Assembly (NCBI RefSeq): GCF_003952725.1
Contig: NZ_CP032509.1
Coordinates: 2,628,001-2,692,000, forward strand
DNA: 64,000 nucleotides
From: Georhizobium profundi
GTDB lineage: Bacteria; Pseudomonadota; Alphaproteobacteria; Rhizobiales; Rhizobiaceae
Reading direction: 5' to 3'
Shown here: positions 27,006 through 57,985 of the stretch, piece by piece
Layout: the number at the start of each line of letters is the position of its first letter
Numbering within the stretch: position 1 is the first letter of the stretch
Program-made: the position numbers and the translations under genes
Notes under the pieces: model-generated
Database searches by the model: none
What the model was told of the DNA's origin: nothing
What the model saw: only the letters and a program-made list of their open reading frames with translations

Positions 27006-28037
27006 TTGCGCATGCAGCCTCAACTGAACTCCCATCTTTTTGATCCCTGGATGATCGGCTCCGTCGCGGTGCGCAACCGCGTCGTGCTGGCGCCGATGTC
27101 GGGCGTGACCGACCTGCCGTTTCGGCGGCTGGCGCATCGCTTCGGTGCGGGGCTCGTCGTCACCGAGATGATCGCAAGCCGTGAACTCGTCGGCGACAGC
27201 GGCGACTCCCGCCGGCGCATGGCGCAGGAAGATGGCGTCGTGCATGTCGTTCAGCTTGCCGGCCGCGATGCCTCCTGGATGGCAGAGGCCGCCAGGATAG
27301 CGGAAGGCGAGGGCGCGGATGTCATCGACATTAACATGGGCTGCCCTGCCAAGAAGGTCATTGGCGGCTACTCCGGTTCGGCGCTGATGCGCGATCCAGA
27401 TCATGCGCTGTCGCTCGTCGACGCCACGATCACGGCCGTGTCCGTGCCGGTGACCGTCAAGATGCGCCTCGGTTGGGACGAGAACTCCATCAACGCGCCG
27501 GAGATCGCAGCGCGGGCAGAAGATGCCGGGGCGGCGATGATCACGGTTCACGGACGCACCCGCGAACAATTCTATGAAGGACGTGCCGACTGGAATGCGA
27601 TCCGGGCCGTGCGGGATGCCATCTCGGTACCGCTGGTTGCCAATGGCGATGTGGCGACGGAGGCCGACTGCCACGCGATCAGGGTCGCTTCAGGCGCCGA
27701 TGCCGTGATGGTGGGGCGTGCCGCGCAGGGCCAGCCATGGTTGCCGGGGGCGCTTGCGGGACGCGGGCTTGGCCCATCCAGCGCCGCGGAGATCGTCGAT
27801 GTGGTCATCGAGCATTATGAGGCGATGCTCGCTCACTACGGCACCGAGCTTGGGCTGCGCTGCGCGCGCAAGCATCTCGGCTGGTATCTCGGCCTGCATT
27901 GTACCGATGTTCCTGCGGAGATGCGGGCCATCGTCATGGGCAGTCGTGATCCGAAAGCCGTCATCGCGGCCCTGTCGCAGCTGTTTCTGAATTGCGAAAA
28001 TTTGGCAAAGCCATCGGCTTACGGCGAGGCCGCCTGA
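27006..28037 (+). CDS. dusB: tRNA-dihydrouridine synthase DusB (NifR3)
   Basis: 343 residues. Start at TTG 27006 because AAAGGA ends six bases before it; ATG 27012 is two codons later. TIM barrel with FMN motifs [28 protein letters not shown] (catalytic Cys) and [11 protein letters not shown]. Reduces uridine in the tRNA D-loop. It heads the dusB-ntrB-ntrC operon usual in rhizobia. Confidence 0.96.
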
Positions 28038-28051
28038 TGAGGAGCGCAAAG

Positions 28052-29209
28052 ATGAGCGCAAGCTCGGCTGGTCCCACCGATCTTCCTACTGACATCGGCG
28101 TGACGGCCCATGTTTTGAACACCATCCAGCACCCGGTCATCATGGTGAACGGCGCAGGCAACATTTCCTACGCCAACTGGGCCGCAGAGAACTTTTTTGG
28201 TGTGAGCGCCGATCTTTTGCGTCGCCACACGATCGACCAGTATACTCCGTTCGGCAGTCCGCTTCTTGCGCTTATCGACCATGTGCGTGAGCGTCGCGGA
28301 CCCATCAACGAATACCGTGTGGATCTGAGTTCGCCCAAGCTCGGCGGGGAGAAGCTCGTCGATCTCTACGTCGCGCCGGTTTCGGGTGAAGCTGATGACG
28401 AAGATTCGGTCGTCATCGTGCTGCAGGTTCGCACCATGGCAGACAAGATCGACCGACAGCTGACGCACCGGGCCGCGGCACGCTCCGTCACCGGGCTTGC
28501 CTCGATGCTTGCGCATGAGATCAAGAATCCGCTGTCGGGCATTCGCGGGGCAGCGCAGCTTCTGGAAAGCTCGGTCAATGACGAAGACCGCGCGCTCACT
28601 AGGCTCATCCGCGACGAGACGGACCGGATCGTCTCGCTCGTCGATCGGATGGAAGTGTTCTCCGACGAGCGCCCGGTCGATCGCCAGCCGGTCAACATTC
28701 ACTCCGTGCTCGATCACGTGAAGGCTGTCGCCATGGCCGGCTTTGCCCGCGACATCCGCATCAGCGAGCAATACGACCCGTCGCTTCCCTTCGTTTTTGC
28801 CAATCGCGATCAGCTGATCCAGGTCTTCCTCAATCTGGTGAAGAACGCGAGCGAAGCGATCGGCGATGCGGCCGATGGCGAAATCATGCTCACCACTGCC
28901 TACCGTCCGGGGATCCGTCTGTCTGTTCCCGGTTCCAGGGAAAAGGTGTCGCTGCCGCTGGAATTTTGCGTCATCGACAATGGGCCGGGGGTACCCGACG
29001 ATCTGCTGCCGCATCTCTTCGACCCGTTCATCACTACAAAAACCAACGGCTCGGGGCTCGGCCTTGCACTGGTCGCAAAGATCGTGGGCGCCCATGGCGG
29101 GATCGTCGAGTGCGACAGCCAAAACAAGAAGACCGTGTTCCGCATATTGATGCCGGTGTCGAAGGGCACCGCACTCTGGCCGGACGACAACGCCGAGGCC
29201 AAGGCATGA
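28052..29209 (+). CDS. ntrB: Nitrogen sensor histidine kinase NtrB
   Basis: 385 residues from ATG 28052, chosen for GAGGAG seven bases upstream; ATG 28037 overlaps the dusB stop. A PAS domain (residues 15-130) has no membrane segment. The H box is HEIKNPLSG with His155, and the ATPase motifs [18 protein letters not shown] and GSGLGLAL are present. With PII it phosphorylates or dephosphorylates NtrC according to nitrogen status. Overlaps ntrC by four bases. Confidence 0.97.
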
Positions 29210-30657
29210 AATCAGCGACAATTCTGGTAGCCGACGACGACGCCGCGATCCGCACGGTGCTCAATCAGGCTCTGACGCGGGCGGGATATGATGTTCGCAT
29301 CACGTCGAACGCGTCGACACTCTGGCGGTGGATTTCAGCAGGCGAGGGCGATCTCGTCATCACGGACGTCGTGATGCCCGATGAAAACGCCTTCGACCTT
29401 CTACCGCGGATCAAGAAGGCACGGCCGGAGTTGCCGGTGCTCGTGATGAGCGCGCAGAATACCTTCATGACGGCGATCAAGGCTTCCGAGAAGGGCGCCT
29501 ACGATTATCTGCCGAAGCCGTTCGATCTGACCGAGATGATCGGCATCATCGGGCGGGCGCTATCCGAACCCAAAAAGCGCGTCGATCGTGCCGATGCCGA
29601 CCAGAATGATGGGATCCCGCTGGTCGGTCGCTCCGCTGCCATGCAGGAAATCTACCGCGTATTGGCGCGGTTGATGCAGACCGACCTGACGCTGATGATC
29701 ACGGGCGAATCCGGAACTGGCAAGGAACTGGTCGCCCGCGCGCTGCACGATTACGGCAAGCGTCGCAATGGCCCCTTCGTGGCCATCAACATGGCGGCGA
29801 TCCCGCGCGATCTCATCGAATCGGAACTGTTCGGCCACGAGAAGGGCGCGTTCACCGGGGCGCAGAACCGCTCGACGGGCCGCTTCGAGCAGGCCGAGGG
29901 CGGCACTCTGTTCCTCGATGAAATCGGCGACATGCCGATGGAGGCGCAAACGCGGCTTCTGCGCGTGCTGCAGCAGGGCGAGTACACGACTGTCGGTGGC
30001 CGGACGCCGATCAAGACCGACGTGCGCATCGTTGCCGCCACCAACAAGGATTTAAAGACGTCGATCAACCAGGGTCTCTTCAGAGAAGACCTTTATTATC
30101 GCTTGAACGTCGTGCCGCTGCGCCTGCCGGCACTGCGAGACCGGGCCGAGGACGTGCCCGATCTGGTGCGCCACTTCGTCAAGCTCTGCCAGAAGGAGGG
30201 GCTGGACGCCAAACGCTTCGACGGCGATGCGCTCGAGCTCATGAAATCCTATCCTTGGCCGGGCAATGTGCGCGAACTGGAGAACGTGGTTCGGCGCCTG
30301 ACGGCGCTCTATCCACAAGAAGTGATCACGCGCGAGATCATCGACAACGAGTTGCGCACCGATGCGCCGGCGAGTGCGATCAGCACTGAGGGGTTGTCCG
30401 GCCCGGTCACGATCGCCCAGGCCGTCGAAGAGAACATGCGCACTTATTTCGCCCAATATGGCGAAGATCTGCCGCCGCCGGGCCTCTATCATCGCGTGCT
30501 GCACGAGATGGAATTTCCGCTCATCCTCGCTGCGCTCACCGCCACGCGTGGTAACCAGATTCGCGCTGCAGAGCTTCTCGGCCTCAACCGGAACACGCTG
30601 CGCAAGAAGATCCGCGAGCTCGGTGTCAGCGTCTATCGCAGCCAGCGGAGCGCTTGA
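29206..30657 (+). CDS. ntrC: Nitrogen response regulator NtrC (sigma54 activator)
   Basis: 483 residues from the ATG in the ATGA overlap with ntrB. Receiver residues 1-120 with phospho-acceptor Asp54; AAA+ domain with GESGTGKE, the sigma54-contact loop GAFTGA intact, and [13 protein letters not shown]; Fis-type HTH at the end ([17 protein letters not shown]). Activates sigma54 promoters under nitrogen limitation, so it is the obvious candidate activator for the sigma54 promoter at 34977 in this same window. Confidence 0.98.
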
Positions 30658-30753
30658 CCGGCCGTCCGGATAGTTGCATTTTCGCCACAAAGCGTTGCTC
30701 TAAGGCAACGGCGGCCGAGTCGCCGCGGGGGAACATCCAACCATCTGGCGGAC

Positions 30754-33039
30754 ATGGCGATCAGCACTTTTTCAGTCGATAGCCAAAGTCACGGCGCTCC
30801 TCCACCGGGGGCGCTCGAGCAGGGCGAAGGCCGCCGCATTTTGGCAAATCCGGGTCTCATCGTCGTCGTCACTGCGCTGATCAGCGCCGTCGGCTCGTTC
30901 GTGATCTTGATGGGCCTGACACCGATTGCGCCACGCAATGAAGTCGTGATGACGGCCGTCATCGTCAACCTCGTCTTCGTCCTCGCGCTTCTCGGATTGA
31001 TCGCCTACGAGATCCGACGCGTTTTCCAGGCGCGTCGTCGCGGAAAGGCGGCCGCGCGTCTTCATGTGCGCATTATCGGGCTCTTCTCGATCGTCGCCAT
31101 CGTGCCGGCCATCCTGGTGGCGATCGTCGCATCGATCACGCTCGATATCGGGCTCGACCGCTGGTTCTCGATGCGCACGCAATCGATCGTCAGCTCCTCG
31201 CTGGATGTTGCCGAAGCCTATGTGATGGAGAACGCGCGCTACCTGCAGGGCCAGACCGTTTCGATGGCGAACGATCTGGACAATGCACGACAGCTCTATT
31301 CCCTGGACCGGACGGGCTTTCAGGTGCTGCTCACCCGGCAGGCGACGGGGCGCGGCTTGCTGGGTGCGTTTCTCGTTCGAAACGACGGCACCGTCATCTT
31401 GCGCGCGGACATCGAAACGGAGCGACCGCTGCCGGCCATTCCACCGGATGCGCTGCGCTCGGCGAGCGAGGGCCGTCCGACGCTCATTCCTCCGGGTGTC
31501 ACCAATCTCGTCGGTGCGATCATGCGCCTGCAGGACATTCCGGACACGTTTCTCTACGCGATCCGTGCCGTCGATCCCGATGTCATCCAGTCCATGCGGC
31601 TGATGGAAGACAACATCGCCGAATACCAGGCGCTGGAGGCCAATCGCGGGCCGCTGCAGCTTGCCTTCGGCATTCTCTATATCGGCTTCGCCCTGATCGT
31701 GCTTCTCGCCGCGATCTGGACTGCAATCGCCGTTGCCGACCGTATCGTGCGGCCGATCCGGCAGCTGATCGGCGCGGCCGACCAGGTGGCGGCGGGCGAT
31801 CTTTCCGTTCAGGTGCCAGTGCGTGGATCGGACGGCGACGTCGCGCATCTGTCGGACACGTTCAACAACATGATCGTGCAGATCGGCACGCAGCGCGACC
31901 AGATCCTGTCCGCGAAGGACGAAATGGACGAACGCCGCCGCTTTACCGAAGCGGTGCTGTCCGGTGTCTCGGCAGGGGTGATGGGCATCGACCGGGACGG
32001 TCGGGTGGCGATCTCCAATTCGTCCGCTGAAATCATGATGAATACGCCGCCCGGTGCCCTCGTCGGACGGCGGCTGGCGGACATAGCGCCGGAGATCGAC
32101 GCCGTGCTGTCACAGGCCGTGCAGCGCAGGCGCCAGGAAGCGCGCGAGCAGGTAACGGTCATCCGCAGCGGCACGGAACGCACCTTGAACGTCCAGGTGA
32201 CCCGCGAGGAATCACTCAGCGACGAGAACTCCTATGTGGTGACGCTGGACGACATCACAGATCTCGTCATTGCGCAGCGTTCCACCGCTTGGGCCGACGT
32301 TGCGCGCCGAATCGCGCACGAGATCAAGAACCCGCTGACGCCGATCCAGCTTTCGGCCGAACGTATTCGGCGGCGCTACGGAAAGCAGATCAACCAGGAC
32401 GACCGCACCGTGTTCGACCAGTGCACGGACACGATCGTGCGGCAGGTGGAAGATATCGGCCGCATGGTCGACGAGTTCTCGGCATTCGCCCGCATGCCCA
32501 AGCCGACCAAGGAGCCGGCGGACCTCAAGAACATCCTCCGTGATGCGATTTTCCTGCGTGAGGTCAGCCGGAACGACATTTCCTTCAAGCTCGTTGCCGA
32601 CAGCGGGCCGATCCAGGGGCTTTTCGATGCGCGGATGCTTGGCCAGGCATTTTCCAACCTGATCAAGAATGCCAGCGAAGCGATTGATGCCGTGCCCGCC
32701 GATGCCGAGCGCGATGGCCGGCGCATCGAGGTGCGCGCGCGCACCGAGGACGACCAGATCGTCGTCGATGTGATCGACAATGGTCGCGGACTGCCGATGG
32801 AAAACAGGAACCGCATCCTGGAGCCCTACATCACCATGCGTGAGAAGGGCACCGGTCTTGGTCTCGCGATCGTCAAGAAGATCGTCGAGGACCATGACGG
32901 CTCCCTCGAACTGCACGACGCGCCGCCGGACTTCGATTCCGGCCGTGGCGCGATGGTTCGGGTGCGCCTTTCGACGGGTGCGAAAGAAACCGATAGGGAC
33001 AGCACAATGCTTGAGGAGGCCAATCACCATGGCGTCTGA
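30754..33039 (+). CDS. ntrY: Membrane histidine kinase NtrY
   Basis: 761 residues. Four hydrophobic helices (about 30-55, 65-90, 110-135 and 300-330) flank a periplasmic sensor region. HAMP, PAS and kinase domains follow; the H box is HEIKNPLTP with His522, and the N and G boxes are NLIKNASEA, DNGRGL and GTGLGLAI. Partner of NtrX; linked to nitrogen, redox and envelope control in alphaproteobacteria. Overlaps ntrX by 11 bp. Confidence 0.96.
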   Translation: MAISTFSVDSQSHGAPPPGALEQGEGRRILANPGLIVVVTALISAVGSFVILMGLTPIAPRNEVVMTAVIVNLVFVLALLGLIAYEIRRVFQARRRGKAAARLHVRIIGLFSIVAIVPAILVAIVASITLDIGLDRWFSMRTQSIVSSSLDVAEAYVMENARYLQGQTVSMANDLDNARQLYSLDRTGFQVLLTRQATGRGLLGAFLVRNDGTVILRADIETERPLPAIPPDALRSASEGRPTLIPPGVTNLVGAIMRLQDIPDTFLYAIRAVDPDVIQSMRLMEDNIAEYQALEANRGPLQLAFGILYIGFALIVLLAAIWTAIAVADRIVRPIRQLIGAADQVAAGDLSVQVPVRGSDGDVAHLSDTFNNMIVQIGTQRDQILSAKDEMDERRRFTEAVLSGVSAGVMGIDRDGRVAISNSSAEIMMNTPPGALVGRRLADIAPEIDAVLSQAVQRRRQEAREQVTVIRSGTERTLNVQVTREESLSDENSYVVTLDDITDLVIAQRSTAWADVARRIAHEIKNPLTPIQLSAERIRRRYGKQINQDDRTVFDQCTDTIVRQVEDIGRMVDEFSAFARMPKPTKEPADLKNILRDAIFLREVSRNDISFKLVADSGPIQGLFDARMLGQAFSNLIKNASEAIDAVPADAERDGRRIEVRARTEDDQIVVDVIDNGRGLPMENRNRILEPYITMREKGTGLGLAIVKKIVEDHDGSLELHDAPPDFDSGRGAMVRVRLSTGAKETDRDSTMLEEANHHGV

Positions 33040-34393
33040 CATTCTCGTCGTGGACGACGAGCAGGACATCCGCGAACTGGTCGCAGGTATCCTCTCCGAC
33101 GAAGGACATGAAACACGCACCGCTTTCGATAGCGACAGCGCAATCCAGGCGATTTCCGACCGCGTGCCGCGGCTCGTATTCCTAGACATCTGGCTGCAAG
33201 GATCGAAATTGGACGGTCTGGCTCTGCTGGACGAGATCAAGACGCGCTATCCGGACCTTCCGGTGGTGATGATCTCGGGTCACGGCAACATCGAGACTGC
33301 CGTTTCGGCGATCAAGCGCGGTGCCTATGATTTCATCGAAAAGCCGTTCAAGAGCGACCGCCTGATCCTCATCGCCGAACGTGCGCTGGAGACATCGAAG
33401 CTCAAGCGCGAAGTCAGCGAACTGAAGCGCCGGAGCGGCGATCCGGTCGAGCTGATCGGGACGTCGATCGCCATCTCGCAGTTGAAGAATACGATCGACA
33501 AGGTGTCGCCCACCAACAGCCGCGTGATGATCCTCGGTCCGTCGGGGTCGGGAAAGGAACTGGTCGCGCGTCTTATCCATCGCAATTCCAGCCGGGCGAA
33601 TGGCCCGTTCGTTGCGATGAACGCCGCAGCGATCACGCCGGAGCGCATGGAAATGGCTCTGTTCGGCACCGAAAACAACAATGGCTATGAGCGCAAGGTC
33701 GGTGCGCTGGAGGAGGCCCATGGCGGCATCCTCTATCTCGACGAAGTGGCGGACATGCCGCGCGAGACGCAGAACAAGATCCTGCGCGTGCTCGTCGACC
33801 AGCAGTTCGAGCGGGTCGGCGGCTCCAAGCGGGTGAAGGTGGATGTGCGCATCATCTCATCCACCGCATTCAATCTCGAGCAGATGATTGCGGAAGGGCT
33901 TTTTCGACAGGATCTATTCCATCGACTGGCGGTCGTGCCGATCAAGGTGCCGTCGCTGGCCGAACGGCGCGAGGACATTCCGTTTCTGGTCGACATCTTC
34001 ATGCGTCAGATTGCGGAGCAGGCCGGCATCCGGCCGCGACCGATCGCCGATGACGCCATGGCGGTTCTGCAGGCGCATGACTGGCCGGGCAATATCCGGC
34101 AGTTGCGCAACAACATCGAGCGGCTGATGATCCTTGCGCGCAACGACGGCACGGACAAACCGATCACGGCTGACATGCTGCCCGGCGAGATCGGCGACAT
34201 GCTGCCGAAGACGGCCAGCCGCGGCGACAGCCACATCATGACGCTGCCGCTGCGCGAAGCCCGCGAGATGTTCGAACGCGACTACCTGATCGCGCAGATC
34301 AACCGGTTCGGTGGCAACATCTCGCGGACATCGGAGTTCGTCGGCATGGAGCGCTCGGCGTTGCACAGAAAGCTGAAATCGCTGGGCGTTTAG
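33029..34393 (+). CDS. ntrX: Response regulator NtrX
   Basis: 454 residues from ATG 33029 with GAGGAGG nine bases upstream. Receiver with Asp53 (VFLDIWLQGSKLDG), AAA+ domain with GPSGSGKE and GGILYLDEVADMP, and a C-terminal Fis-like HTH (NISRTSEFVGMERSALHRKL). The GAFTGA loop is replaced by ENNNGYERKVGALEE, so it should not drive sigma54 itself, as known for alphaproteobacterial NtrX. In most rhizobia trkA follows; here that gene is 23 kb away on the other strand. Confidence 0.97.
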   Translation: MASDILVVDDEQDIRELVAGILSDEGHETRTAFDSDSAIQAISDRVPRLVFLDIWLQGSKLDGLALLDEIKTRYPDLPVVMISGHGNIETAVSAIKRGAYDFIEKPFKSDRLILIAERALETSKLKREVSELKRRSGDPVELIGTSIAISQLKNTIDKVSPTNSRVMILGPSGSGKELVARLIHRNSSRANGPFVAMNAAAITPERMEMALFGTENNNGYERKVGALEEAHGGILYLDEVADMPRETQNKILRVLVDQQFERVGGSKRVKVDVRIISSTAFNLEQMIAEGLFRQDLFHRLAVVPIKVPSLAERREDIPFLVDIFMRQIAEQAGIRPRPIADDAMAVLQAHDWPGNIRQLRNNIERLMILARNDGTDKPITADMLPGEIGDMLPKTASRGDSHIMTLPLREAREMFERDYLIAQINRFGGNISRTSEFVGMERSALHRKLKSLGV

Positions 34394-34976: not shown

Positions 34977-34992
34977 TGGCACGAAGTTTGCT
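34977..34992 (+). promoter_or_regulatory. Sigma54 (-24/-12) promoter of the guanidine operon
   Basis: TGGCACGAAGTTTGCT agrees at every defined position with the sigma54 consensus TGGCACG-N4-TTGCW, including GG (-24) and GC (-12) ten bases apart. Transcription would start near 35003, just before the riboswitch aptamer. No fully convincing NtrC dyad was seen upstream; an imperfect one (TGCGCACTGTGGCGCCA, 34920-34936) is the only candidate. Confidence 0.8.
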
Positions 34993-35016
34993 TCGACAGG
35001 GTCAGTGTGGTGACGG

Positions 35017-35160
35017 CATCTAGGGTTCCGTCCGATCCCGCCAATGCGGGGTAGGAGCTGGTCCGAGAGGTGCAAGCCGGGGTTCTTTGCCCGGTGACAC
35101 GGCGGGACAAAATCCCGGGAGGCACCACGCAGGTTTGTCGCGCGCAAACCTCTCCCGGAT
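35017..35160 (+). ncRNA. Guanidine-I riboswitch (ykkC) with expression platform
   Basis: The conserved blocks of the ykkC/guanidine-I aptamer appear in order: ATCTAGGGTTCCG (35018-35030), CTGGTCCGAGAGG (35058-35070) and ACACGGCGGGAC followed by AAAATCCCGGGAG (35097-35122). Downstream a hairpin AGGTTTG/CAAACCT (from about 35132) is followed by CTCCCGG, complementary to the aptamer segment CCGGGAG (35116-35122), so aptamer folding and a downstream helix should compete. The first ORF starts 77 bp further. Guanidine binding is expected to raise expression of the operon. Confidence 0.93.
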
Positions 35161-35236: not shown

Positions 35237-36295
35237 ATGAAGTCGCTTGCCATTGCCGCCCTGATCTCGTCCACGCTCATCGCGCCTCTGCCGGTCTTTG
35301 CGCAGGAGAAGACGGAGTTCAACGTCTGCTGGTCGATTTATGCCGGCTGGATGCCATGGGGTTACCTCGCCGACAGCGGGATCATGGACAAATGGGCGGA
35401 GAAATACGGCATTTCCGTCGAGATCACGCAGATCAACGACTATGTCGAATCCATCAACCAATACACGGCCGGCCAGTATGACGGCTGCACCATGACCAAT
35501 ATGGATGCGCTGTCGATCCCGGCAGCAGGCGGCGTCGATACGACCGCGTTGATCATCGGGGATTATTCGAACGGCAATGACGGCCTCGTGCTGAAGGATG
35601 GCGGGGACCTGGCCTCCATCGCCGGGCAGAGCGTCAACCTCGTCGAGCTTTCCGTTTCCCACTACTTCCTGGCGCGCGCTCTTGAGAGCGTCGGCTTGTC
35701 CGAGCGCGACATTACCGTGGTCAACACGTCCGATGCGGACATGGTCTCCATCTACGGCACGCCCGATGTCACCGCGGTGGCGACCTGGAACCCGATGCTT
35801 TCGGAGATCCTGGCCTCCGGTGAAGGTGAACTGGTTTACGACTCCGCTGAGATTCCCGGCGAAATCCTGGACTTGATGGTGGTGAACACCGAGGTGCTTG
35901 CCGCCAATCCCGACTTCGGCAAGGCGCTCGTCGGCGCGTGGTTCGAAGTGCTTGCGCTGATGCAATCGGACACGCCGGAGGGAACTGCGGCACTCGAGGC
36001 GATGGCGGCTGCTGCCGGCACGGATCTCGAAGGCTACCAGGAGCAGCTCGCCGCCACCGAACTGTTCTACACGCCGGCCGATCTCATCGCATTTGCGAAT
36101 GACGAGGATTTGGCGGAGACGACGCAGTTCGTAACGGAGTTCCTGTTCGAGAAGGGCATCCTGGGGCAGGGTGCACCGAGCGCGGAATTCGTCGGCGTCT
36201 CGTTTCCCGGCGGCGCCACCTATGGCGACCAGGCCAATCTCAAGCTGAGGTTCGACACAAGCGTCGTTCAGATGGCCGCAGACGGCGCACTCTGA
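35237..36295 (+). CDS. ABC transporter substrate-binding protein, guanidine/urea-carboxylase-region type
   Basis: 352 residues with a signal peptide (residues 1-22, cleavage near VFAQE). The mature start FNVCWSIYAGWMPWGYLAD and INDYVESINQYTAGQYDGC match the periplasmic binding proteins annotated as putative urea transport next to urea (guanidine) carboxylase genes, in the taurine/nitrate family. Trp and Tyr residues near the start could form a cation-pi box for guanidinium. First gene behind the riboswitch, so guanidine or a guanidino compound is the likely ligand (inference). Confidence 0.88.
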   Translation: MKSLAIAALISSTLIAPLPVFAQEKTEFNVCWSIYAGWMPWGYLADSGIMDKWAEKYGISVEITQINDYVESINQYTAGQYDGCTMTNMDALSIPAAGGVDTTALIIGDYSNGNDGLVLKDGGDLASIAGQSVNLVELSVSHYFLARALESVGLSERDITVVNTSDADMVSIYGTPDVTAVATWNPMLSEILASGEGELVYDSAEIPGEILDLMVVNTEVLAANPDFGKALVGAWFEVLALMQSDTPEGTAALEAMAAAAGTDLEGYQEQLAATELFYTPADLIAFANDEDLAETTQFVTEFLFEKGILGQGAPSAEFVGVSFPGGATYGDQANLKLRFDTSVVQMAADGAL

Positions 36296-36307
36296 GGGGC
36301 CGGCGGC

Positions 36308-37372
36308 ATGGCCAGCGCATCCACGGCTTTCACCAGTCTGCCACTGATCGACGTAAGCGGGCTTTACAGCGACAAATCGAGCGACCGCATCGCGGTCGCC
36401 GACAGGCTCGGCAAGGCAGCACGCGAGGTCGGGTTCTTCTACGTCACCGGACATCGCGTCGATGGCGAGATGCGAGCGCGACTGCTGGATCAGACCAAAC
36501 GCTTCTTCGCTCAACCGGTCGAGCGGAAGATGGACGTCTATATCGGCAATTCGACGAACCATCGCGGCTATGTGCCGGAGGGCGAGGAGGTGCTGGTCGG
36601 CGGCAAGCGCGACAAGAAGGAAGCGCTCGATCTCGGCCGGGATCTTCCGGCCGACCATGCAGACGTCGTCGCCGGCACGCCAATGATCGGGCCGAACCAG
36701 TGGCCGGAACTCGATGGGTTCCGCGAGGACATCACCGCCTATTACGATGCGGTTTTCGAGCTGGGTCGAAGGTTGCTCACCGGATTTGCGTTGGCACTCG
36801 GCAAGGAGGAAGGCTTCTTCCAGCGCTTCGTCACCCGTCCGCCAAGCCAGCTGCGCTTGCTGCACTATCCCTTCGATGCGACGGCGGAGGACGTTCAGGG
36901 CTTCGGCGCGCACACCGATTACGAGTGCTTTACGCTTCTTCTGCCGACGGCGCCTGGCCTTGAGGTGATGAACGGCGAGGGGGCCTGGGTCGACGTGCCG
37001 CTCGTGCCGGATGCGTTCGTCGTCAATATTGGCGACATGATGGAGGTCTGGACGAACGGGCAGTTCGTGGCGACCTCGCACCGGGTGCGCAAAGTCCAGG
37101 AGGAACGCTATTCCTTCCCGCTGTTCTTCGCCTGCGACTACGACACGGTCGTCGCGCCGCTCGATGAGTTGATTGCGCCCGGCGACGCACCGCGTTTCGA
37201 GCCGATCCGTGCGGGCGAGCACCTTTTTGCCCAGACCGTGCAAAGCTTCACCTATCTGCGTGAGCGGCTTGCCCGAGGCGAGATTGTGCTGCCCAAAAAT
37301 GCAAAGGCGCTGTCGTCGTTCGGACAGGCGGCACGTCACGATGCGCCGACGGGCAAGGCCGGCCATGGGTGA
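36308..37372 (+). CDS. 2-oxoglutarate/Fe(II) dioxygenase-like oxygenase (isopenicillin N synthase family)
   Basis: 354 residues. N-terminal DIOX_N region (LPLIDVSGLY, REVGFFYVTGH) and a C-terminal 2OG-Fe(II) domain with iron ligands His202 and Asp204 (GAHTDYE) and His258 (SHRVR). Arg267 with Ser269 (RYSF) binds the 2-oxoglutarate carboxylate. All key residues are present, so it should be active. Located inside the guanidine-riboswitch operon, 12 bp after the binding-protein gene. Possible role: oxidising a substituted guanidine (methylguanidine, homoarginine or similar) to release guanidine, since related dioxygenases can free guanidine from arginine-like substrates. The substrate is not known. 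Confidence 0.88.
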   Translation: MASASTAFTSLPLIDVSGLYSDKSSDRIAVADRLGKAAREVGFFYVTGHRVDGEMRARLLDQTKRFFAQPVERKMDVYIGNSTNHRGYVPEGEEVLVGGKRDKKEALDLGRDLPADHADVVAGTPMIGPNQWPELDGFREDITAYYDAVFELGRRLLTGFALALGKEEGFFQRFVTRPPSQLRLLHYPFDATAEDVQGFGAHTDYECFTLLLPTAPGLEVMNGEGAWVDVPLVPDAFVVNIGDMMEVWTNGQFVATSHRVRKVQEERYSFPLFFACDYDTVVAPLDELIAPGDAPRFEPIRAGEHLFAQTVQSFTYLRERLARGEIVLPKNAKALSSFGQAARHDAPTGKAGHG

Positions 37373-38057
37373 AATGATCGAGCATCACCTGCCGCCGGTA
37401 CCGCAGGCTTATCGGGGCCTCTGGGAAAGGACGCTGATCGAACGCGATGGCGTGGCTGGAGCCGGCAATGAGCAGGACGAGCGCGTCTTTTGGCTGCAGA
37501 CGGAGAACTGGCATGCGGACCTGCGCATTCCCCTCGATCGTCCCGCATTCGCAGGCGTAGAAGCGCTCGATGGGTGCAGTGACGCACAGCTCGGCTTTAT
37601 CACCAGGCAGGAAGGCTTCTGCGGGCTGACGAAAGTCGAGGGGAGCGTTTGTACGTGGCTCCGCATCCACGATCTGCGGCCCGGCACGGCACTCGATGTC
37701 GGTCGCATGTCCTTTGCAGAGCCAAACTTCATCATCGAGACCGGCATTTCCAGCGATTATCTTGAACACTGGCGGAAGGTCCCCGGATCGGACGGCGCCT
37801 GTGGCGTGACGAGCGCGGCTGGCGAACTGATGCTTCAGGCCGGGCGGTTCTCGATGCGCATTCGACCGCGACCTCCTGCGCCGGCTCATGCCGACAGCTA
37901 CGCACCGGTCGAGACGCTTGATCGGGCGCATCTGTTGTGGAGGGCGTCGCTGGAAATCACCCTTCTCGAGGAGACCCGCGCGGTTCTGTCCACGCATCCA
38001 TGGTTGGAACAGGAAGCAGGCTCGTCGGTCATCGCCCAGGTGGCCCGATGCGCCTGA
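37365..38057 (+). CDS. HRI1-like protein of the guanidine operon
   Basis: 230 residues from ATG 37365, overlapping the dioxygenase stop by eight bases. The opening (YRGLWERTLIERDGV, VFWLQTENWHADLRIPLDRP) resembles the HRI1/lipocalin-like family known from fungi and scattered bacteria. A second beta-rich half ends in SLEITLLEETRAVLSTHPWL. No catalytic motif recognised. Its fixed place between the oxygenase and permease genes suggests a role in the same pathway, perhaps substrate or cofactor binding. Family assignment is from memory of the pattern and moderate. Confidence 0.7.
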   Translation: MGEMIEHHLPPVPQAYRGLWERTLIERDGVAGAGNEQDERVFWLQTENWHADLRIPLDRPAFAGVEALDGCSDAQLGFITRQEGFCGLTKVEGSVCTWLRIHDLRPGTALDVGRMSFAEPNFIIETGISSDYLEHWRKVPGSDGACGVTSAAGELMLQAGRFSMRIRPRPPAPAHADSYAPVETLDRAHLLWRASLEITLLEETRAVLSTHPWLEQEAGSSVIAQVARCA

Positions 38058-38869
38058 TGAACCGCAAGCCCTCGCGCACCACGGCGCTGTTTCTCGGCCT
38101 CTTGCCGTTCGCGTTGTTGGCGATCGTCTACGTTCTCGCCAGTTCGGCACGGCTTGCCGACAATCCGGCCGACAAGCTTCTGCCGTCGCTGTCGACCATG
38201 GCCGAAACCTTTCGCATCATGGCATTCGAGGAGGACGTTCGCTCCGGTGACCGGCTCCTTTGGCTCGATACGGCGGCGAGCCTGTGGCGCCTGGGGCTGG
38301 GTCTTGCCATCTCGGCGACGCTCAGCCTCTTCATCGGCATCTTCATCGGGTTCCTGCCCTATGGACGCGCTTTTCTGGCGCCATTCATCTCGGCGTTCTC
38401 GCTGATCCCGCCCATCACCGTGCTGCCGATCCTCTTCATCGTGCTCGTGCTTGGGGAGGCGTCGAAGATCGGGCTGATCGTGGTCGGCACCGCACCTTTG
38501 ATGATCCGATCGCTTGCGCAGACGGTGCTGTCGATCCCGCGCGAGGAGATGGTGAAGGCGCAGACGCTCGGCGCATCTTCCTGGCAGATCGCATTGCGCG
38601 TCGTGCTTCCGCAGATCTGGCCGGCGCTGATCACGGCGATCCGCATGGGCCTGATCCCAGCGTGGATATTTCTGATCTCCGCCGAAGCGATCGCGTCTAC
38701 CGAAGGCCTTGGGTACCGGATCTTTCTCGTTCGGCGCTATCTCGCGATGGACGTGATCGTGCCTTATGTCGCCTGGATCACGCTGATTGCCTATCTCACC
38801 GACCGGCTGCTGGCGCTTTTGTCCCGACGGGCTTTCCGCTGGGCGCATTTGCAGGGGGATGCGCTATGA
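38048..38869 (+). CDS. ABC transporter permease (guanidine operon)
   Basis: 273 residues from ATG 38048, overlapping the upstream gene by ten bases; ATG 38057 is an alternative. Six transmembrane helices; the EAA loop is seen in EEMVKAQTLGASSWQIALRV followed by VLPQIWPALI, as in the BPD_transp_1 permeases for taurine, nitrate and urea-like solutes. Works with the adjacent ATPase and the binding protein at 35237. Four-base overlap with the ATPase gene. Confidence 0.92.
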   Translation: MRLMNRKPSRTTALFLGLLPFALLAIVYVLASSARLADNPADKLLPSLSTMAETFRIMAFEEDVRSGDRLLWLDTAASLWRLGLGLAISATLSLFIGIFIGFLPYGRAFLAPFISAFSLIPPITVLPILFIVLVLGEASKIGLIVVGTAPLMIRSLAQTVLSIPREEMVKAQTLGASSWQIALRVVLPQIWPALITAIRMGLIPAWIFLISAEAIASTEGLGYRIFLVRRYLAMDVIVPYVAWITLIAYLTDRLLALLSRRAFRWAHLQGDAL

Positions 38870-39675
38870 GCGGAGCAGGCAAAGCCTTCGTCGAAGCCCG
38901 CGGCATCCATGTCAGCTATGACGGCAACCCGATCCTCGAACGTGTGCACATGTCGGTAGAGCGCGGTGCCTTCGTCACAATCCTCGGCGCTTCTGGATGC
39001 GGGAAATCGACCTTTCTGCGGCTTCTGCTCGGGCAGGAGACGCCGCAGAAGGGCGAGATCCTGGTGGATGGCAAGCAGATTGCCGCGGAACCTGATCCAG
39101 ACCGTGGGGTAGTCTTTCAGAAATACTCGGTCTTTCCGCATTTGACGGTGTGGCAGAACCTGCTTCTGCCCGCTGAAATCGGCGGCTCGCCGTTTCTCGC
39201 GCGGCTCTTCGGCGCGGCGCGGCGACACGCGGAGGAGGCGGCCGAGGAAATGCTGGTCGAGATCGGGCTCAGCCATGCGCGCAACCGCTATCCGGCGCAG
39301 CTTTCAGGCGGCATGCAGCAGCGCCTGGCAATCGGCCAGGCACTCTTGAAGAAGCCGCGAATCCTTCTGCTCGACGAACCCTTCGGCGCGCTCGATCCGG
39401 GCATCCGCGCTGATATGCATGTGCTCATCACCGAGTTGTGGCGGTCCTGCGGGATGACGGTCTTCATGGTCACGCACGACATCCAGGAAGCCTTCAAGCT
39501 CGGAACGCGCATCCTCGTCTTCGACAAGGTGCGCCATGACCCGCACGCGCCGGAACGGTTCGGAGCGACCATCACCTACGATCTGCCGCTTGATCACAAG
39601 GCGAAGGCGGCTGCGGCCTTGCCGCCAGATCTATTGAAAACTCAGTCGCATCAGGGAGTTGACGTTCATGCGTAA
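38866..39675 (+). CDS. ABC transporter ATP-binding protein (guanidine operon)
   Basis: 269 residues from the ATG overlapping the permease stop (ATGA). Walker A GASGCGKST, Q-loop VFQKYSVFPH, signature LSGGMQQRLAIGQALL, Walker B ILLLDEPFGALD and the H-loop MVTHDIQEA are all present. The C-terminal tail after residue 225 (HDPHAPERFGATITYDLPLD) is typical for ATPases of the urea-carboxylase-region transporters. Overlaps the hydrolase gene by eight bases. Confidence 0.95.
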   Translation: MSGAGKAFVEARGIHVSYDGNPILERVHMSVERGAFVTILGASGCGKSTFLRLLLGQETPQKGEILVDGKQIAAEPDPDRGVVFQKYSVFPHLTVWQNLLLPAEIGGSPFLARLFGAARRHAEEAAEEMLVEIGLSHARNRYPAQLSGGMQQRLAIGQALLKKPRILLLDEPFGALDPGIRADMHVLITELWRSCGMTVFMVTHDIQEAFKLGTRILVFDKVRHDPHAPERFGATITYDLPLDHKAKAAAALPPDLLKTQSHQGVDVHA

Positions 39676-40912
39676 TCCATTCTTTGCAGAGCCGGGCCGG
39701 GCGGGCCGCACCATGGGTGCCGGCCGAATGGCACGGCCTGCGCCGAGCCGCTCGCATCATCCCGATTTCGACAAGCTGAACCTGCGTGGGTGGAAGGCGG
39801 CGGAAAAGGAAGCGCTGCTGCCTTCGGCTGCCTGGAACAAGGAGCGCCAATGGGCGCTGCGGATGGGGCTCACGGGCTCCGACAGCCTGACAGACAAGAA
39901 CATCCCGACATTTGCGCGCGGCGAGCTGCCCCATTATGCCGGCATCAACACGTTCCTCAAAGCGCCTTACATCGAAGACGTCACCAAGGTGGGCGCCTAC
40001 GATGCGGCCGTGATCGGCATTCCCTTCGATGGCGGCACGACCTACCGGCCCGGAACGCGCTTCGGCCCGCAGGGCGTGCGCAAGATTTCGGCGCTCTATA
40101 CGCCCTACAATTACGAAATGGGCGTCGACCTTCGCGAGCAGATGACGCTCTGCGATGTCGGCGACGTCTTCACCATCCCCGCCAACATCGAAAAGACCTT
40201 CGACCAGATCACGCGTGCCGTCAGCCACGTGTTCTCCTCCGGTGCCTTGCCGATCATGATCGGTGGCGACCATTCGATCGGCTTTCCATGCGTGCGCGGC
40301 ATTGCCGAATGCACCTCGAAGCGCATCGGGATCGTGCATTTTGACCGGCACATCGACATTCAGGAACGCGACCTCGACGAGCGCATGCACACGACGCCCT
40401 GGTTCCACGCGACCAACCTTGCCAATGTACCCGCGGTCAATCTCGTTCAGGTCGGCATCGGCGGCTGGCAGGTGCCGCGCGAAGGCGTCGAGATCGCCAG
40501 GGAGCGCAACACCAACATCTTCACCATGCGCGACATCGAGGAACTCGGTCTCGCCGAGACGGCGACGCGCGCTCTGGAGCTTGCGTGGAAAGATGCCGAC
40601 GCAGTCTACATCTCCTTCGACATCGACAGCGTCGATTGCGGCTTCGTGCCCGGCACGGGCTGGCCGGAGCCGGGTGGCTTCCTGCCGCGCGAGGCACTGG
40701 AACTCGTTGGACGTGTGGCGGCGGAGGGGATCTGCGGGCTGGAGGTCGTGGAAGTCTCACCGCCTTACGACACGTCCGACATCACGGCCCTGCTTGCGAC
40801 CCGCGTGATCGTCGATGTGCTCGGAACGCTCGTCTCGCACGGCAAGATCGGCTCGCACCGCGGCATCATCGACAAGCCGGTGACGATCCCGGCCGGCCCC
40901 GACGTCGAGTGA
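39668..40912 (+). CDS. gdmH: Ureohydrolase, likely nickel-dependent guanidine hydrolase (GdmH-like)
   Basis: 414 residues from ATG 39668 (GGGAG nine bases upstream). Arginase/agmatinase fold with metal ligands His202 (GGDHSIG), Asp226-His228-Asp230 (FDRHID) and Asp318/Asp320 (SFDIDSVD). About 105 extra N-terminal residues precede the fold (which begins AAVIGIPFDGG), longer than in normal agmatinases (about 300 residues) but as expected for guanidine hydrolases. The usual DAHxD is DRHID, and the substrate loop reads PGTGWPEPGG. Known GdmH enzymes need Ni and give urea plus ammonia. The riboswitch and transporter make guanidine the likely substrate; agmatinase or guanidinobutyrase is the alternative. 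Confidence 0.8.
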   Translation: MRNPFFAEPGRAGRTMGAGRMARPAPSRSHHPDFDKLNLRGWKAAEKEALLPSAAWNKERQWALRMGLTGSDSLTDKNIPTFARGELPHYAGINTFLKAPYIEDVTKVGAYDAAVIGIPFDGGTTYRPGTRFGPQGVRKISALYTPYNYEMGVDLREQMTLCDVGDVFTIPANIEKTFDQITRAVSHVFSSGALPIMIGGDHSIGFPCVRGIAECTSKRIGIVHFDRHIDIQERDLDERMHTTPWFHATNLANVPAVNLVQVGIGGWQVPREGVEIARERNTNIFTMRDIEELGLAETATRALELAWKDADAVYISFDIDSVDCGFVPGTGWPEPGGFLPREALELVGRVAAEGICGLEVVEVSPPYDTSDITALLATRVIVDVLGTLVSHGKIGSHRGIIDKPVTIPAGPDVE

Positions 40913-40925
40913 AGGATCAGCGACC

Positions 40926-41456
40926 ATGCACGGCTCCCGACCGCATCATCTGCACGGCCATCACCATCACCACCATCATGGCCTCGACGATCACGGCCAT
41001 GGCACCCATGGTACCCATGACCACCGCGGCCATCACCATGAGGCGACAGGCCCGGCTCTCGGCCACAACCACAGCCATGCCGACCATCTGCATTCGCACC
41101 CGCACGGGTCGTCGCGCGTGCGCCAGGACCTGCAGGAGCTCGCCGCGAGTTTCGTCGAGAGCTTCCGGGCTGCCGGCGACAAAACCAGCTATCTGAGGCT
41201 GGCCGGAATTCCTTTCCAGATGCCGGACAGCGGCGGCAAGGCCATGCATCTGGTGGACACCCGCATCGAAACCAATTGGCAGATCGGCACCGCGACGCCC
41301 GGCTTCGGCACCAGCGAACTCGCCTATCTGCCGTTCCCTGGAAAGATGGTGACCGAGCGCGAGGTGATGATGTTCACCTATGTCTCGATGAAGGAGCGCC
41401 GCGACGTCGATCTCTGCACGCTTCTGGCGGACCGATTCCGGGATCAGGAGCACTAG
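40926..41456 (+). CDS. Histidine-rich protein, putative nickel/metal donor for the hydrolase
   Basis: 176 residues with GAAGGA nine bases before ATG 40926, 13 bp after the hydrolase gene. Residues 1-62 hold 26 histidines, including a run of seven (residues 12-18) and many HGH, HSH and HPH units. From residue 63 there is a normal globular domain of about 110 residues (LRLAGIPFQMPDSGGKAMHL, TATPGFGTSELAYLPFPGK) that I do not recognise. Guanidine hydrolases studied so far rely on HypA/HypB-like chaperones. None is visible here, so this protein may store or deliver nickel instead (inference). Last gene of the operon. Confidence 0.85.
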   Translation: MHGSRPHHLHGHHHHHHHGLDDHGHGTHGTHDHRGHHHEATGPALGHNHSHADHLHSHPHGSSRVRQDLQELAASFVESFRAAGDKTSYLRLAGIPFQMPDSGGKAMHLVDTRIETNWQIGTATPGFGTSELAYLPFPGKMVTEREVMMFTYVSMKERRDVDLCTLLADRFRDQEH

Positions 41457-41457
41457 G

Positions 41458-42738
41458 TCAGATCGCGGTGTCGGTGCGGTGGTTGGCGTCCAGTGAGCCG
41501 GCCGCCCCGGCAAGACGCTCGTGCCGTTCGATGAGATGGGCGCGCACGGCTTCGTCCTCGGTGAGCGCGATTGCTTCCTGGATCGAAGCGACGGCGTCGT
41601 CCCGCAAACCGGCCAGGGCAGAAACATGGCTGCGGGCGACCCACCAGGGTTGGTGGGCGCGCACACGCGCTAAGGGCAGGGTGTCGAGTTCGGCGAGTGC
41701 TGCCGTCGGATCGCCCGCTTCGGCAATAACGACAGCACGCCCGATCCGTGCCGCGATGCTGTCGGCCCGATCGATCAGCAGATCATAGATCGTCCGCAGC
41801 GCAGCCAGATTGAGCGCACCGGTGATCGGACGCTGGATATGCACCGATTGAATTGCTGCCTCGCATTGGAACCGCCCGAACGTCCCGGCGCGGGCTGCCG
41901 TCATCAACAACCCTTCCGCTTCGATGATGAGATTGCGATCCCAAAGGCGCGGATCCTGCTGGTCCAGTGGAACGAAGCGGCCTTTGCCGTCTCGCCGTGC
42001 GGTTTGCCGGGCCGCGCAATAGAGCATCAAAGCCAACAGCCCCTTCGGCTCCGGTTGATCAGGCATCAGCTGGACAATGAGACGCGCAAGCCAGATCGCT
42101 TCCCCGGTCAAAGCATCCGGCGTGTCGAGGCCATCGAGCCTGTCCCAGCCTTGGCCGAAGGCTGCATAGATCGCGTCGAGCACGGCGCCGAGGCGTTCGG
42201 GCATGTCCCCGGCCTCAGGCAACGCATAGCGCAGGCCCGCATCCCGGATGCGCGCTTTTGCACGGACAAGTCGTTGCGACATGGCAGTCGGTTCGACGAG
42301 AAATGCGCGGGCGATGCGGCCAGCATCGATGCCGAGCACCACCTGCAGGATCAAAGGGGTACGCACAGCGATGTCGATCGCCGGATGCGCACAGAGGAAC
42401 ATCAGGGACAGCCGCTCGTCGAATTGATCTCCATGCGGCGCCAATTCATCGAGACGCCGCTGAATTTCGGGCTCGGCCGCCCTTTGGATACCGTGGGCCC
42501 GGGCGCGGTTTTTCAGCCGGTTGCGCGCGGCGGTGATCAGCCATGCTTCGGGATTGTTCGGCACGCCATCGACTGGCCAGCGCTGGAGCGCCGCCACGAG
42601 CGCTTCGGACAGCGCATCTTCGGCGGCCGCAATATCCTTGTCTCGGCGGGTCAGGATCGCGATCAGCTTGCCATAACTCGATCGGGCGACCCGCTCGGCC
42701 GCCCGATCCACGCCTTCGATAGTAGACGGGGTGGTCAT
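41458..42738 (-). CDS. ECF42-type RNA polymerase sigma factor
   Basis: 426 residues. Sigma region 2 (SYGKLIAILTRRDKDIAAAEDALSEAL-type, AWLITAARNRLKN) and region 4 (residues about 110-170, EPTAMSQRLVRAKARI) are followed by a long C-terminal domain (DUF6596 plus TPR-like helices, LDAIYAAFGQGW, GLLALMLYCAARQTAR). This extended architecture and the YciI/DGPF neighbour define group ECF42. It has no classical anti-sigma factor; the C-terminal domain is thought to control it. The ATG overlaps the DGPF gene stop by one base. Its stop lies one base from the His-rich gene. Confidence 0.95.
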   Translation of the reverse strand: MTTPSTIEGVDRAAERVARSSYGKLIAILTRRDKDIAAAEDALSEALVAALQRWPVDGVPNNPEAWLITAARNRLKNRARAHGIQRAAEPEIQRRLDELAPHGDQFDERLSLMFLCAHPAIDIAVRTPLILQVVLGIDAGRIARAFLVEPTAMSQRLVRAKARIRDAGLRYALPEAGDMPERLGAVLDAIYAAFGQGWDRLDGLDTPDALTGEAIWLARLIVQLMPDQPEPKGLLALMLYCAARQTARRDGKGRFVPLDQQDPRLWDRNLIIEAEGLLMTAARAGTFGRFQCEAAIQSVHIQRPITGALNLAALRTIYDLLIDRADSIAARIGRAVVIAEAGDPTAALAELDTLPLARVRAHQPWWVARSHVSALAGLRDDAVASIQEAIALTEDEAVRAHLIERHERLAGAAGSLDANHRTDTAI

Positions 42739-43103
42739 TATTGCGATGAAGGCATCGGCGGCAGCACCGGACGCACTTCGACAGATGCCGTCCTGGCCGA
42801 CGGCGCCTTAGCCGCCCAGTCGATCGCGGTGTCGAGATCCGGCACATCAACGATGAAATAGCCGCCCAACTGCTCCTTGGTGTCGGCGAAGGGCCCGTCT
42901 TCGACTGTGCGGTTGCCATCGCGCACCCGGACGGTGGTCGAAGTGTGCGGCGCCTGAAGGCCATCGCCTTTGACGACGATGCCGGACTGCGCCATGGCCT
43001 CGATGAAAGCGTTCCAGCCGCCCCAGTAGTCGGCAGATTGAGCGGGGTCCGCACGGCGCGCGAAATCATCGTGGGTTTCGCGCAGGATGAGCATGAACTG
43101 CAT
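42738..43103 (-). CDS. YciI/DGPF-domain protein, ECF42 partner
   Basis: 121 residues, AAGGAG seven bases before ATG. The YCII-related fold with DGPF signature (VEDGPFADTKEQLGGYFIVDVPD) marks it as the usual companion and target of ECF42 sigma factors. Enzymatic role unknown. Overlaps the sigma factor start (TAATG). Confidence 0.94.
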   Translation of the reverse strand: MQFMLILRETHDDFARRADPAQSADYWGGWNAFIEAMAQSGIVVKGDGLQAPHTSTTVRVRDGNRTVEDGPFADTKEQLGGYFIVDVPDLDTAIDWAAKAPSARTASVEVRPVLPPMPSSQ

Positions 43104-52971: not shown

Positions 52972-53799
52972 ATGCAGCCCTCACGTGACATCGCCACCCT
53001 TCTCGACATCATGGCCAGGCTTCGGGATCCGGAGACGGGCTGTCCCTGGGACATCAAGCAGTCCTTCGAGACGATCAAGCCCTATACGATCGAGGAAGCT
53101 TACGAGGTCGCCGATGCCATCGAGCGTGGCGATCGTGACGATCTCTGTGACGAACTGGGCGATCTTCTTCTGCAGGTGGTCTTCCACGCCCGAATGGCCG
53201 AGGAAGAGCAATCCTTCGATTTCGGCGAAGTCGTGCGCGCCATCACGGCGAAGATGATCCGACGCCATCCTCATATCTTCGCAGATCGTGAGGCTTCCGA
53301 CGCTGCGGCCGTCAAGGTAAACTGGGATGAAATCAAGGCTGCCGAACAGGCTGCGAAGGCGCAAAATCGGGCAGCCCGAGGACTGCCGGCGACGGACCGG
53401 GAAGGGCTGCTGGATGGTGTGCCCCGCGCCCTGCCCGCATTGACCGAAGGCCTGAAGCTCCAGCAGAAAGCCTCGAAGGTCGGATTCGACTGGGCCGATC
53501 CTGCACCTGTGCTCGACAAGATCGAGGAAGAAATCGCCGAGCTGCGTGAGGCACTTGCCGGCGGACGCGTTGAAGCCGTGAAGGACGAAATCGGCGACCT
53601 GATCTTTGCGATGGCCAATCTCGCACGCCAGCTCGATGTGGATCCCGAGCAGGCATTGCGTAACACCAATGGGAAGTTCCGGCGCCGTTTCGGCCATATC
53701 GAACGGACGCTCAGGGCCGATGGCGTTCCGCTTGAAGACGCCGGGCTGGAACGCATGGAAGCGCTTTGGCAGCAGGCAAAACAGATCGAGCGCAGCTGA
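52972..53799 (+). CDS. mazG: MazG nucleoside triphosphate pyrophosphohydrolase
   Basis: 275 residues with two MazG domains (LRDPETGCPWDIKQS, EEAYEVADAIE, DELGDLLLQVVFHA; second EIAELREALA, DEIGDLIFAMANLARQLD). Hydrolyses NTPs, including (d)NTPs and non-canonical ones, to monophosphates and affects ppGpp levels. Preceded by a short AT-rich region with a 7-bp dyad. Convergent with hflX, 41 bp between stops. Confidence 0.95.
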   Translation: MQPSRDIATLLDIMARLRDPETGCPWDIKQSFETIKPYTIEEAYEVADAIERGDRDDLCDELGDLLLQVVFHARMAEEEQSFDFGEVVRAITAKMIRRHPHIFADREASDAAAVKVNWDEIKAAEQAAKAQNRAARGLPATDREGLLDGVPRALPALTEGLKLQQKASKVGFDWADPAPVLDKIEEEIAELREALAGGRVEAVKDEIGDLIFAMANLARQLDVDPEQALRNTNGKFRRRFGHIERTLRADGVPLEDAGLERMEALWQQAKQIERS

Positions 53800-53840
53800 C
53801 GGCGAATGCGCTCGCCGCTCAGCTGATGCCGATCAGGACG

Positions 53841-55217: not shown

Positions 55218-55227
55218 TCAGCCTTGG

Positions 55228-55479
55228 TCACGATCCACTGCCGGCACTGTCGTCGCTCTCGAACATCTGAAGCGGCTGGCCCGGCATGATCGTTGAAATC
55301 GCATGTTTGTAAACGAGCTGCGAATGCCCGTCTCGGCGCAAGAGTACGCAGAAATTATCGAATGACGTCACGACACCGGTTAGCTTGACCCCATTGATCA
55401 AAAAGATCGTCAGGGAAATCTTCTGCTTGCGGACGGTGTTGAGAAACAGGTCCTGCAAATTTTGAGAACGTTCCGCCAT
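55228..55479 (-). CDS. hfq: RNA chaperone Hfq
   Basis: 83 residues with Sm1 ([27 protein letters not shown]) and Sm2 (YKHAISTI) motifs. Hexameric RNA-binding protein promoting sRNA-mRNA pairing, including control of nitrogen-fixation and metabolic genes in rhizobia. Short acidic tail. In operon with hflX. Confidence 0.98.
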
Positions 55480-55596
55480 GGCGTCGCATCTTTCTTTTTT
55501 GCCGACCTCGACCGGGCCGGATAATCGTCACACTGTAACCCTTTGAAAATATGCTAAAAAAGAGAAGTGTGAAGGTCCCCTATTCCCTTGGTGGTA

Positions 55597-56460: not shown

Positions 56461-56494
56461 GATCGACGTCCTTTTTCCAGTCGTTGCAGATGGT

Positions 56495-57979: not shown

Positions 57980-57985
57980 CGGCGG

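Follow-up and report, generated by a model that had tools for sequence, protein, structure and literature searches.

A guanidine-I riboswitch operon of Georhizobium profundi that joins a guanidinase to a candidate methylguanidine demethylation pair and a histidine-rich protein

The operon described here, found in a 64,000-nucleotide stretch of Georhizobium profundi DNA (the window), joins two known pathways in a new way around an enzyme already known, and includes a candidate nickel partner. A single guanidine-I riboswitch is followed by seven tightly packed genes on the + strand (35237-41456; Table 1), encoding an ABC importer, a candidate pair for methylguanidine demethylation (MgdH and MgdL), the guanidine hydrolase GdmH and a histidine-rich protein, HisR. 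Judged from its sequence, the operon would serve as a whole pathway for scavenging nitrogen from guanidine and methylguanidine, a reading in which we have fairly high confidence. The gene calls and the Rfam model RF00442 bore out the original prediction of seven tightly spaced or overlapping genes after one riboswitch, and the predicted transporter proved to be an ABC importer with substrate-binding protein (SBP), permease and ATPase all present. Two intergenic gaps measure 12 and 13 bases and the remaining gene ends overlap, those of mgdH and mgdL by 8 bases. The model matched by the SBP, TIGR03427, carries the name "putative urea ABC transporter substrate-binding protein", and the N-terminus of the SBP, judged by eye, resembles a signal peptide. 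With their Rhizobium albus counterparts the operon proteins share 94-100% identity. Four studies are cited below from excerpts of their text (PMC11410670, PMC12508155, PMC12186494 and PMC11399263).

Table 1. Features of the guanidine operon, in window coordinates.
Feature	Position	Strand	Evidence
Sigma-54 (-24/-12) promoter TGGCACGAAGTTTGCT	34977..34992	+	12/12 consensus positions, 32 nt 5' of aptamer
Guanidine-I riboswitch aptamer	35009..35123	+	RF00442, 68.9 bits
Periplasmic substrate-binding protein (SBP) of ABC importer	35237..36295	+	TIGR03427, 533 bits, cut-off 334
Candidate methylguanidine hydroxylase MgdH (2OG-Fe(II) dioxygenase)	36308..37372	+	Pfam DIOX_N, 2OG-FeII_Oxy
Candidate N-(hydroxymethyl)guanidine lyase MgdL (orf3), HRI1-like beta-barrel	37365..38057	+	
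ABC permease	38048..38869 (start 38048 or 38057)	+	BPD_transp_1, 70.2 bits
ABC ATPase	38866..39675	+	ABC_tran, 122.1 bits
Guanidine hydrolase GdmH	39668..40912	+	Similarity to characterised guanidinases, residues, tree
His-rich GdmH-partner protein (HisR), candidate nickel donor/store	40926..41456	+	His content, adjacency to gdmH, predicted structure

Against Synechocystis GdmH the hydrolase scored 549 bits, and against the N. inopinata guanidinase 533 bits; among ureohydrolases of known structure the next best reached 175 bits, and the metformin hydrolase chains 126-138 bits. The six residues that we take to bind metal (HDHDDD) are all kept. Also kept are the guanidine-specificity residues Thr125, Trp332, His241 and Glu362, the four named in PMC11410670, with Thr125 and Trp332 at the positions of the Thr97/Trp305 specificity pair. 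In a quick tree with other ureohydrolases, built after removal of two fragment rows, the window GdmH and 41 relatives with a His-rich neighbour formed one group beside the two characterised guanidinases (SH-aLRT 89 for the joint guanidinase group, a value to which a long-branch warning applies). The genome encodes three other ureohydrolases, of which two fell in the tree's other-ureohydrolase group, where Ser and Thr occupy the positions of the specificity Thr and Trp in both, and the third lies outside the tree sample. By sequence similarity, tree and specificity residues, which agree with one another, the enzyme is a guanidinase of the GdmH type, as had been predicted, and the phylogeny proposed as a check places it with guanidinases, not with agmatinases. 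Five GdmH homologues in which Ser or Thr replaces the Trp sit outside the guanidinase group. These enzymes (L121-L125), a sister group of GdmH, are probably nickel ureohydrolases; no guanidine riboswitch was found in the stretches scanned, and two of the five (L124 and L125) have a LysR-type gene nearby and are followed by a hupE gene.

HisR is the new element of the operon. It has 26 His among its first 60 residues; the predicted structure comprises a folded core and a low-confidence His tract, and comparison of the core with the PDB gave no clear fold match. It is 97% identical to a protein of Georhizobium sp. MAB10 over 84% of its length. Among 397 sampled genomes of the order, 41 gave HisR matches, one of which, in G138, covered a stretch of 37 residues at E 6.5e-4 and was discarded as spurious; in all 40 remaining genomes HisR lies directly 3' of gdmH on the same strand, and outside the order it adjoins gdmH in three of three cases. 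GdmH matches at E <= 1e-60 were obtained in 45 of the 397 genomes. The guanidine-specific Trp is present in all 40 enzymes with a HisR neighbour, and the five Trp-less homologues have none. As originally predicted, HypA is missing: it was found neither in the window genome nor near gdmH in the loci of other genomes. The view that missing HypA/HypB is an oddity did not hold up, as comammox guanidinase regions are likewise without nickel chaperones (PMC11410670). No Pfam match to a HypA or CobW/HypB/UreG domain was obtained among 34 HisR members at E <= 0.1, the only matches being to DUF761 (0.037) and Zip (0.055), in one member each. Across 45 HisR loci (39 from the order sample, three from its class, R. 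albus and two Jiella; window excluded), in which UreG-like genes were also sought, a HupE/UreJ-type nickel permease gene lies 3' of hisR in 13, seven of them confirmed by Pfam. A HupE gene also follows two of the five Trp-less homologues without HisR, suggesting that HisR is dispensable for some enzymes of the wider group.

These patterns make HisR a probable donor or store of nickel dedicated to GdmH. We regard its role as the nickel partner of GdmH as evenly poised, and give belief and doubt in equal measure to the fuller proposal that HisR represents a new dedicated nickel metallochaperone family (a folded domain plus a His tract), which would replace HypA/HypB for GdmH across Alphaproteobacteria and pass down together with gdmH as the transporter and demethylation genes around the two are exchanged. 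Tentatively, one may keep the same pathway and give HisR no role in loading GdmH: it would be a general metal buffer or a zinc/nickel detoxifier, and nickel would come from urease accessory proteins or bind unaided. The UreG-type gene in the urease region of the genome and the five Trp-less homologues, which lack HisR and of which two have a HupE gene, are in accordance with this, as is the comammox guanidinase, which is still active, with partial nickel occupancy, and has no nickel chaperones nearby (PMC11410670). However, a general buffer should turn up elsewhere too, whereas HisR is exclusively adjacent to gdmH, one to one, in 40 of 40 genomes, and its nearest rows agree with those of GdmH, not with those of the SBP, in the operons viewed (an informal comparison).

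The original prediction assigned the oxygenase an optional oxidation of guanidine. This step found no support: the oxygenase and orf3 match the methylguanidine-demethylating enzymes MgdH and MgdL, published in October 2025, of which MgdH also takes dimethylguanidine (PMC12508155). The comparison was made with Salinisphaera and Halomonadaceae homologues, relatives of Vreelandella boliviensis MgdH and MgdL. The window oxygenase is 61% identical to a Salinisphaera oxygenase (L040), a neighbour of an mgdL homologue, and 64% identical to Halomonadaceae P0256. The family is so large, with 3977 of 8000 scored candidates reaching E <= 1e-60, that the oxygenase alone is weak evidence. We found mgdL directly after mgdH under the guanidine riboswitch. 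MgdL identity is only about 40%; Asp-x-Arg (Asp52/Arg54) is kept in all 28 aligned MgdL homologues and lies on strand 49-56 of the predicted beta-barrel model, and the published catalytic pair is D49/R51 (PMC12508155). The predicted fold matches yeast Hri1. The Pfam profile of the HRI1 family, PF16815, did not match the window MgdL, and it matches five of the 28 members of the MgdL alignment at E <= 0.1 (best 1.4e-5). Taken together, the oxygenase and orf3 are a candidate MgdH/MgdL pair, which would act before the hydrolase and widen the range of substrates.

It is unlikely that the oxygenase instead uses another guanidino compound (e.g., arginine, homoarginine or dimethylguanidine), with orf3 aiding the release of guanidine from the product. 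Its best PDB match, 9ovh (225 bits), is annotated as an ethylene/succinate-forming enzyme, the 2OG oxygenases that release guanidine include the ethylene-forming enzyme and plant homoarginine hydroxylases, and dimethylguanidine is accepted by MgdH itself (PMC12508155). Against this, the window oxygenase is 61-64% identical to those from the published genus and family, and its partner is an MgdL homologue in which Asp-x-Arg is conserved (28/28 aligned). It is highly improbable that the operon serves other guanidino compounds and that its hydrolase acts as an agmatinase or guanidinobutyrase: the two best NCBIfam models are agmatinases, both under cut-off (209.5 vs 302; 170.1 vs 174.3, the closest falling 4 bits short), whereas the enzyme carries the Thr/Trp specificity residues, clusters with two characterised guanidinases and away from two of the genome's other ureohydrolases, and belongs to an operon with a guanidine-I riboswitch at its 5' side.

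The genome scan with the MgdL family yielded 38 loci, of which four (R. albus, Labrenzia sp. OB1 and two Jiella species) unite mgdH, mgdL, gdmH and hisR; a further such locus, G155, came from the order sample. In the window and in these five other combined operons, mgdHL sits between the SBP and permease genes. A carboxylase is present instead in seven of the 38 loci (score threshold 600 bits), and Salinisphaera hydrothermalis, of a genus named in PMC12508155, has a carboxylase and a Gd-II riboswitch beside mgdHL. An Rfam search of 14 of the 38 loci found a guanidine riboswitch in 10, and none in L012, L018, L023 and L033. The composition of the operon had been called unusual; its backbone is that of a widespread alphaproteobacterial operon, and its unusual features are the inserted mgdHL genes and the His-rich protein. 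Other surroundings of MgdL were also seen. In four beta- and gammaproteobacterial loci (L015, L016, L028 and L037), an MgdL homologue and a guanidine-I riboswitch lie no more than about 6 kb apart and no MgdH homologue was detected, so that MgdL possibly has another partner oxygenase or substrate. MgdL-like genes adjoin two tandem ureohydrolase genes in L167 (8032-10624) and L168 (6495-9078), reminiscent of the dimethylguanidine hydrolase pair, and single ureohydrolases occur near MgdL homologues in L026, L034, L035 and L043.

The histories of the operon genes were compared in quick trees from 51 loci (rows past the score thresholds: SBP 42, permease 41, ATPase 42, GdmH 46 and HisR 46). SBPs from five of the six operons with mgdHL formed one group with SH-aLRT 100 (two label changes; one of 500 shuffles as low), and the permeases of these operons clustered too (two label changes; 0/500). 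The ATPase was intermediate (four label changes; 17/500), and the GdmH and HisR trees required five each (104/500 and 105/500). The GdmH proteins of the five operons fell in two distant groups, and a single clade was rejected with p-AU 2.2e-6, the five-row clade having been picked on the SBP tree and then tested on GdmH; conversely, the SBP data rejected the major GdmH clade with p-AU 5.6e-4. The remaining operon, G155, is nearest to relatives without mgdHL in the SBP, permease, ATPase, GdmH and HisR trees. These trees suggest that SBP-mgdH-mgdL-permease is a mobile cassette entering resident gdmH operons, and that gdmH and hisR remained together while the cassette moved. Movement of the SBP with the mgdHL cassette further suggests that this protein is fitted to methylguanidine.

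The predicted sigma-54 promoter was well supported, with all 12 consensus positions in the window and a GG-N10-GC motif 21-36 nt 5' of the aptamer in 32 of 38 operons (1000 base shuffles: mean 5.6, max 14). Of the 38 upstream regions, 35 come from the 40 genomes with HisR and three from R. albus and two Jiella; L007 was left out of an initial 39 as a copy of G286, whose contig has the same length. The site is missing in six (G058, G358, G077, G326, G349 and L008). Across operons, the -24/-12 site lies 27-32 bases 5' of the aptamer start. The window aptamer passed the covariance model (68.9 bits vs a gathering score of 63), and guanidine-I was found in 40 of the 45 genomes with a GdmH match, 39 of them among the 40 HisR genomes (exception, G031). 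The other is G368, whose riboswitch is distant from its gdmH-like gene; riboswitch and gdmH are on different contigs in G215, G232 and G214, and in G072, where gdmH is split, the riboswitch shares a contig with the 5' part of the gene. A terminator scan 3' of the aptamer in the window operon gave no intrinsic terminator, and no Gd-II riboswitch was found in the window. A sigma-54 site 5' of the aptamer implies two-signal control, and it is likely, from sequence, that nitrogen starvation and guanidine are both required. As the Gd-I switch of V. boliviensis does not respond to methylguanidine (PMC12508155), methylguanidine would induce the window operon only after some demethylation.

Genes of the ntrB-ntrC-ntrY-ntrX type (27992-34393) end directly 5' of the operon in the window; the same arrangement was seen in R. 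albus and in none of the other loci examined. In rhizobia, trkA and hflX are usually near ntrX. In the window they lie about 20-25 kb beyond the ntr genes on the opposite strand (52972-59362), and this separation looks like a rearrangement at the site of the operon. Downstream, outside the operon (41458-43103), are two convergent genes, one for a sigma-70-region-2/DUF6596 protein and one for a YCII-domain protein.

From gene content, synteny, residues, trees, and promoter and riboswitch matches, we infer the following enzymatic steps, regulation and role of nickel. Under nitrogen limitation, sigma-54 transcription, with NtrC as the probable activator, would start just 5' of the guanidine-I aptamer, and the guanidine-bound riboswitch would permit expression of the operon. 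The ABC importer would take up guanidine and probably also methylguanidine. MgdH would hydroxylate methylguanidine, MgdL would split the hydroxymethyl product into guanidine and formaldehyde, and GdmH, for which HisR probably stores or loads nickel in place of HypA/HypB, would convert guanidine to urea and ammonia; the chromosomal urease would complete nitrogen release from urea. A single urease alpha gene is present in the genome, one 4.36 Mb contig, and the region around it also holds a gene of the UreG type. Two dehydrogenases exceeded the cut-off for the class III formaldehyde-type family. No guanidine carboxylase over cut-off was found in the genome, in line with the predicted lack of the carboxylase route.

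The Synechocystis PCC 6803 GdmH operon has accessory nickel-delivery proteins, reportedly of the HypA/HypB type; none were found in the window operon, which has HisR instead and differs further in mgdHL and the sigma-54 promoter. Both operons have a guanidine-I riboswitch, an ABC importer and a Ni guanidinase with the Thr/Trp pair (PMC12186494). The comammox Nitrospira locus also combines a guanidine-I riboswitch with a guanidinase and is without nickel chaperone genes, but has an APC permease in place of the ABC importer, and the excerpt mentions neither mgdHL nor a His-rich protein (PMC11410670). The V. boliviensis mgdHL-gca operon shares the riboswitch-controlled ABC importer, mgdH and mgdL; unlike the window operon, with one switch and a guanidinase, it has a second (Gd-II) switch and removes guanidine by carboxylase, carboxyguanidine hydrolase and allophanate hydrolase (PMC12508155). 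Metformin and dimethylguanidine hydrolases (MefH, DmgH) are likewise Ni ureohydrolases acting on guanidines, but the enzyme is heteromeric and accompanied by hypA/hypB; the metformin operon has hupE downstream (PMC11399263).

The literature searched, to which the 2022 Nature GdmH paper does not belong, held no description of HisR, the mgdHL-gdmH operon or the sigma-54/Gd-I layout, and no paper devoted to guanidine riboswitches and sigma-54 (few spellings of the sigma factor covered); the excerpted literature on the two pathways does not mention mgdHL together with a guanidinase. Methylguanidine demethylation and nickel guanidinase, both recently described, meet in one operon. HisR, one small protein that tracks GdmH in every sampled case, bears on how guanidinases without HypA/HypB are supplied with nickel, a point left open for comammox (PMC11410670). 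The bacterial look-alike MgdL, probably a lyase, provides a biochemical hint for yeast Hri1, which, given the likeness of the predicted fold, might be an enzyme. With its sigma-54 site and riboswitch, the operon offers a clear example of how two signals likely govern the use of a rare nitrogen source.
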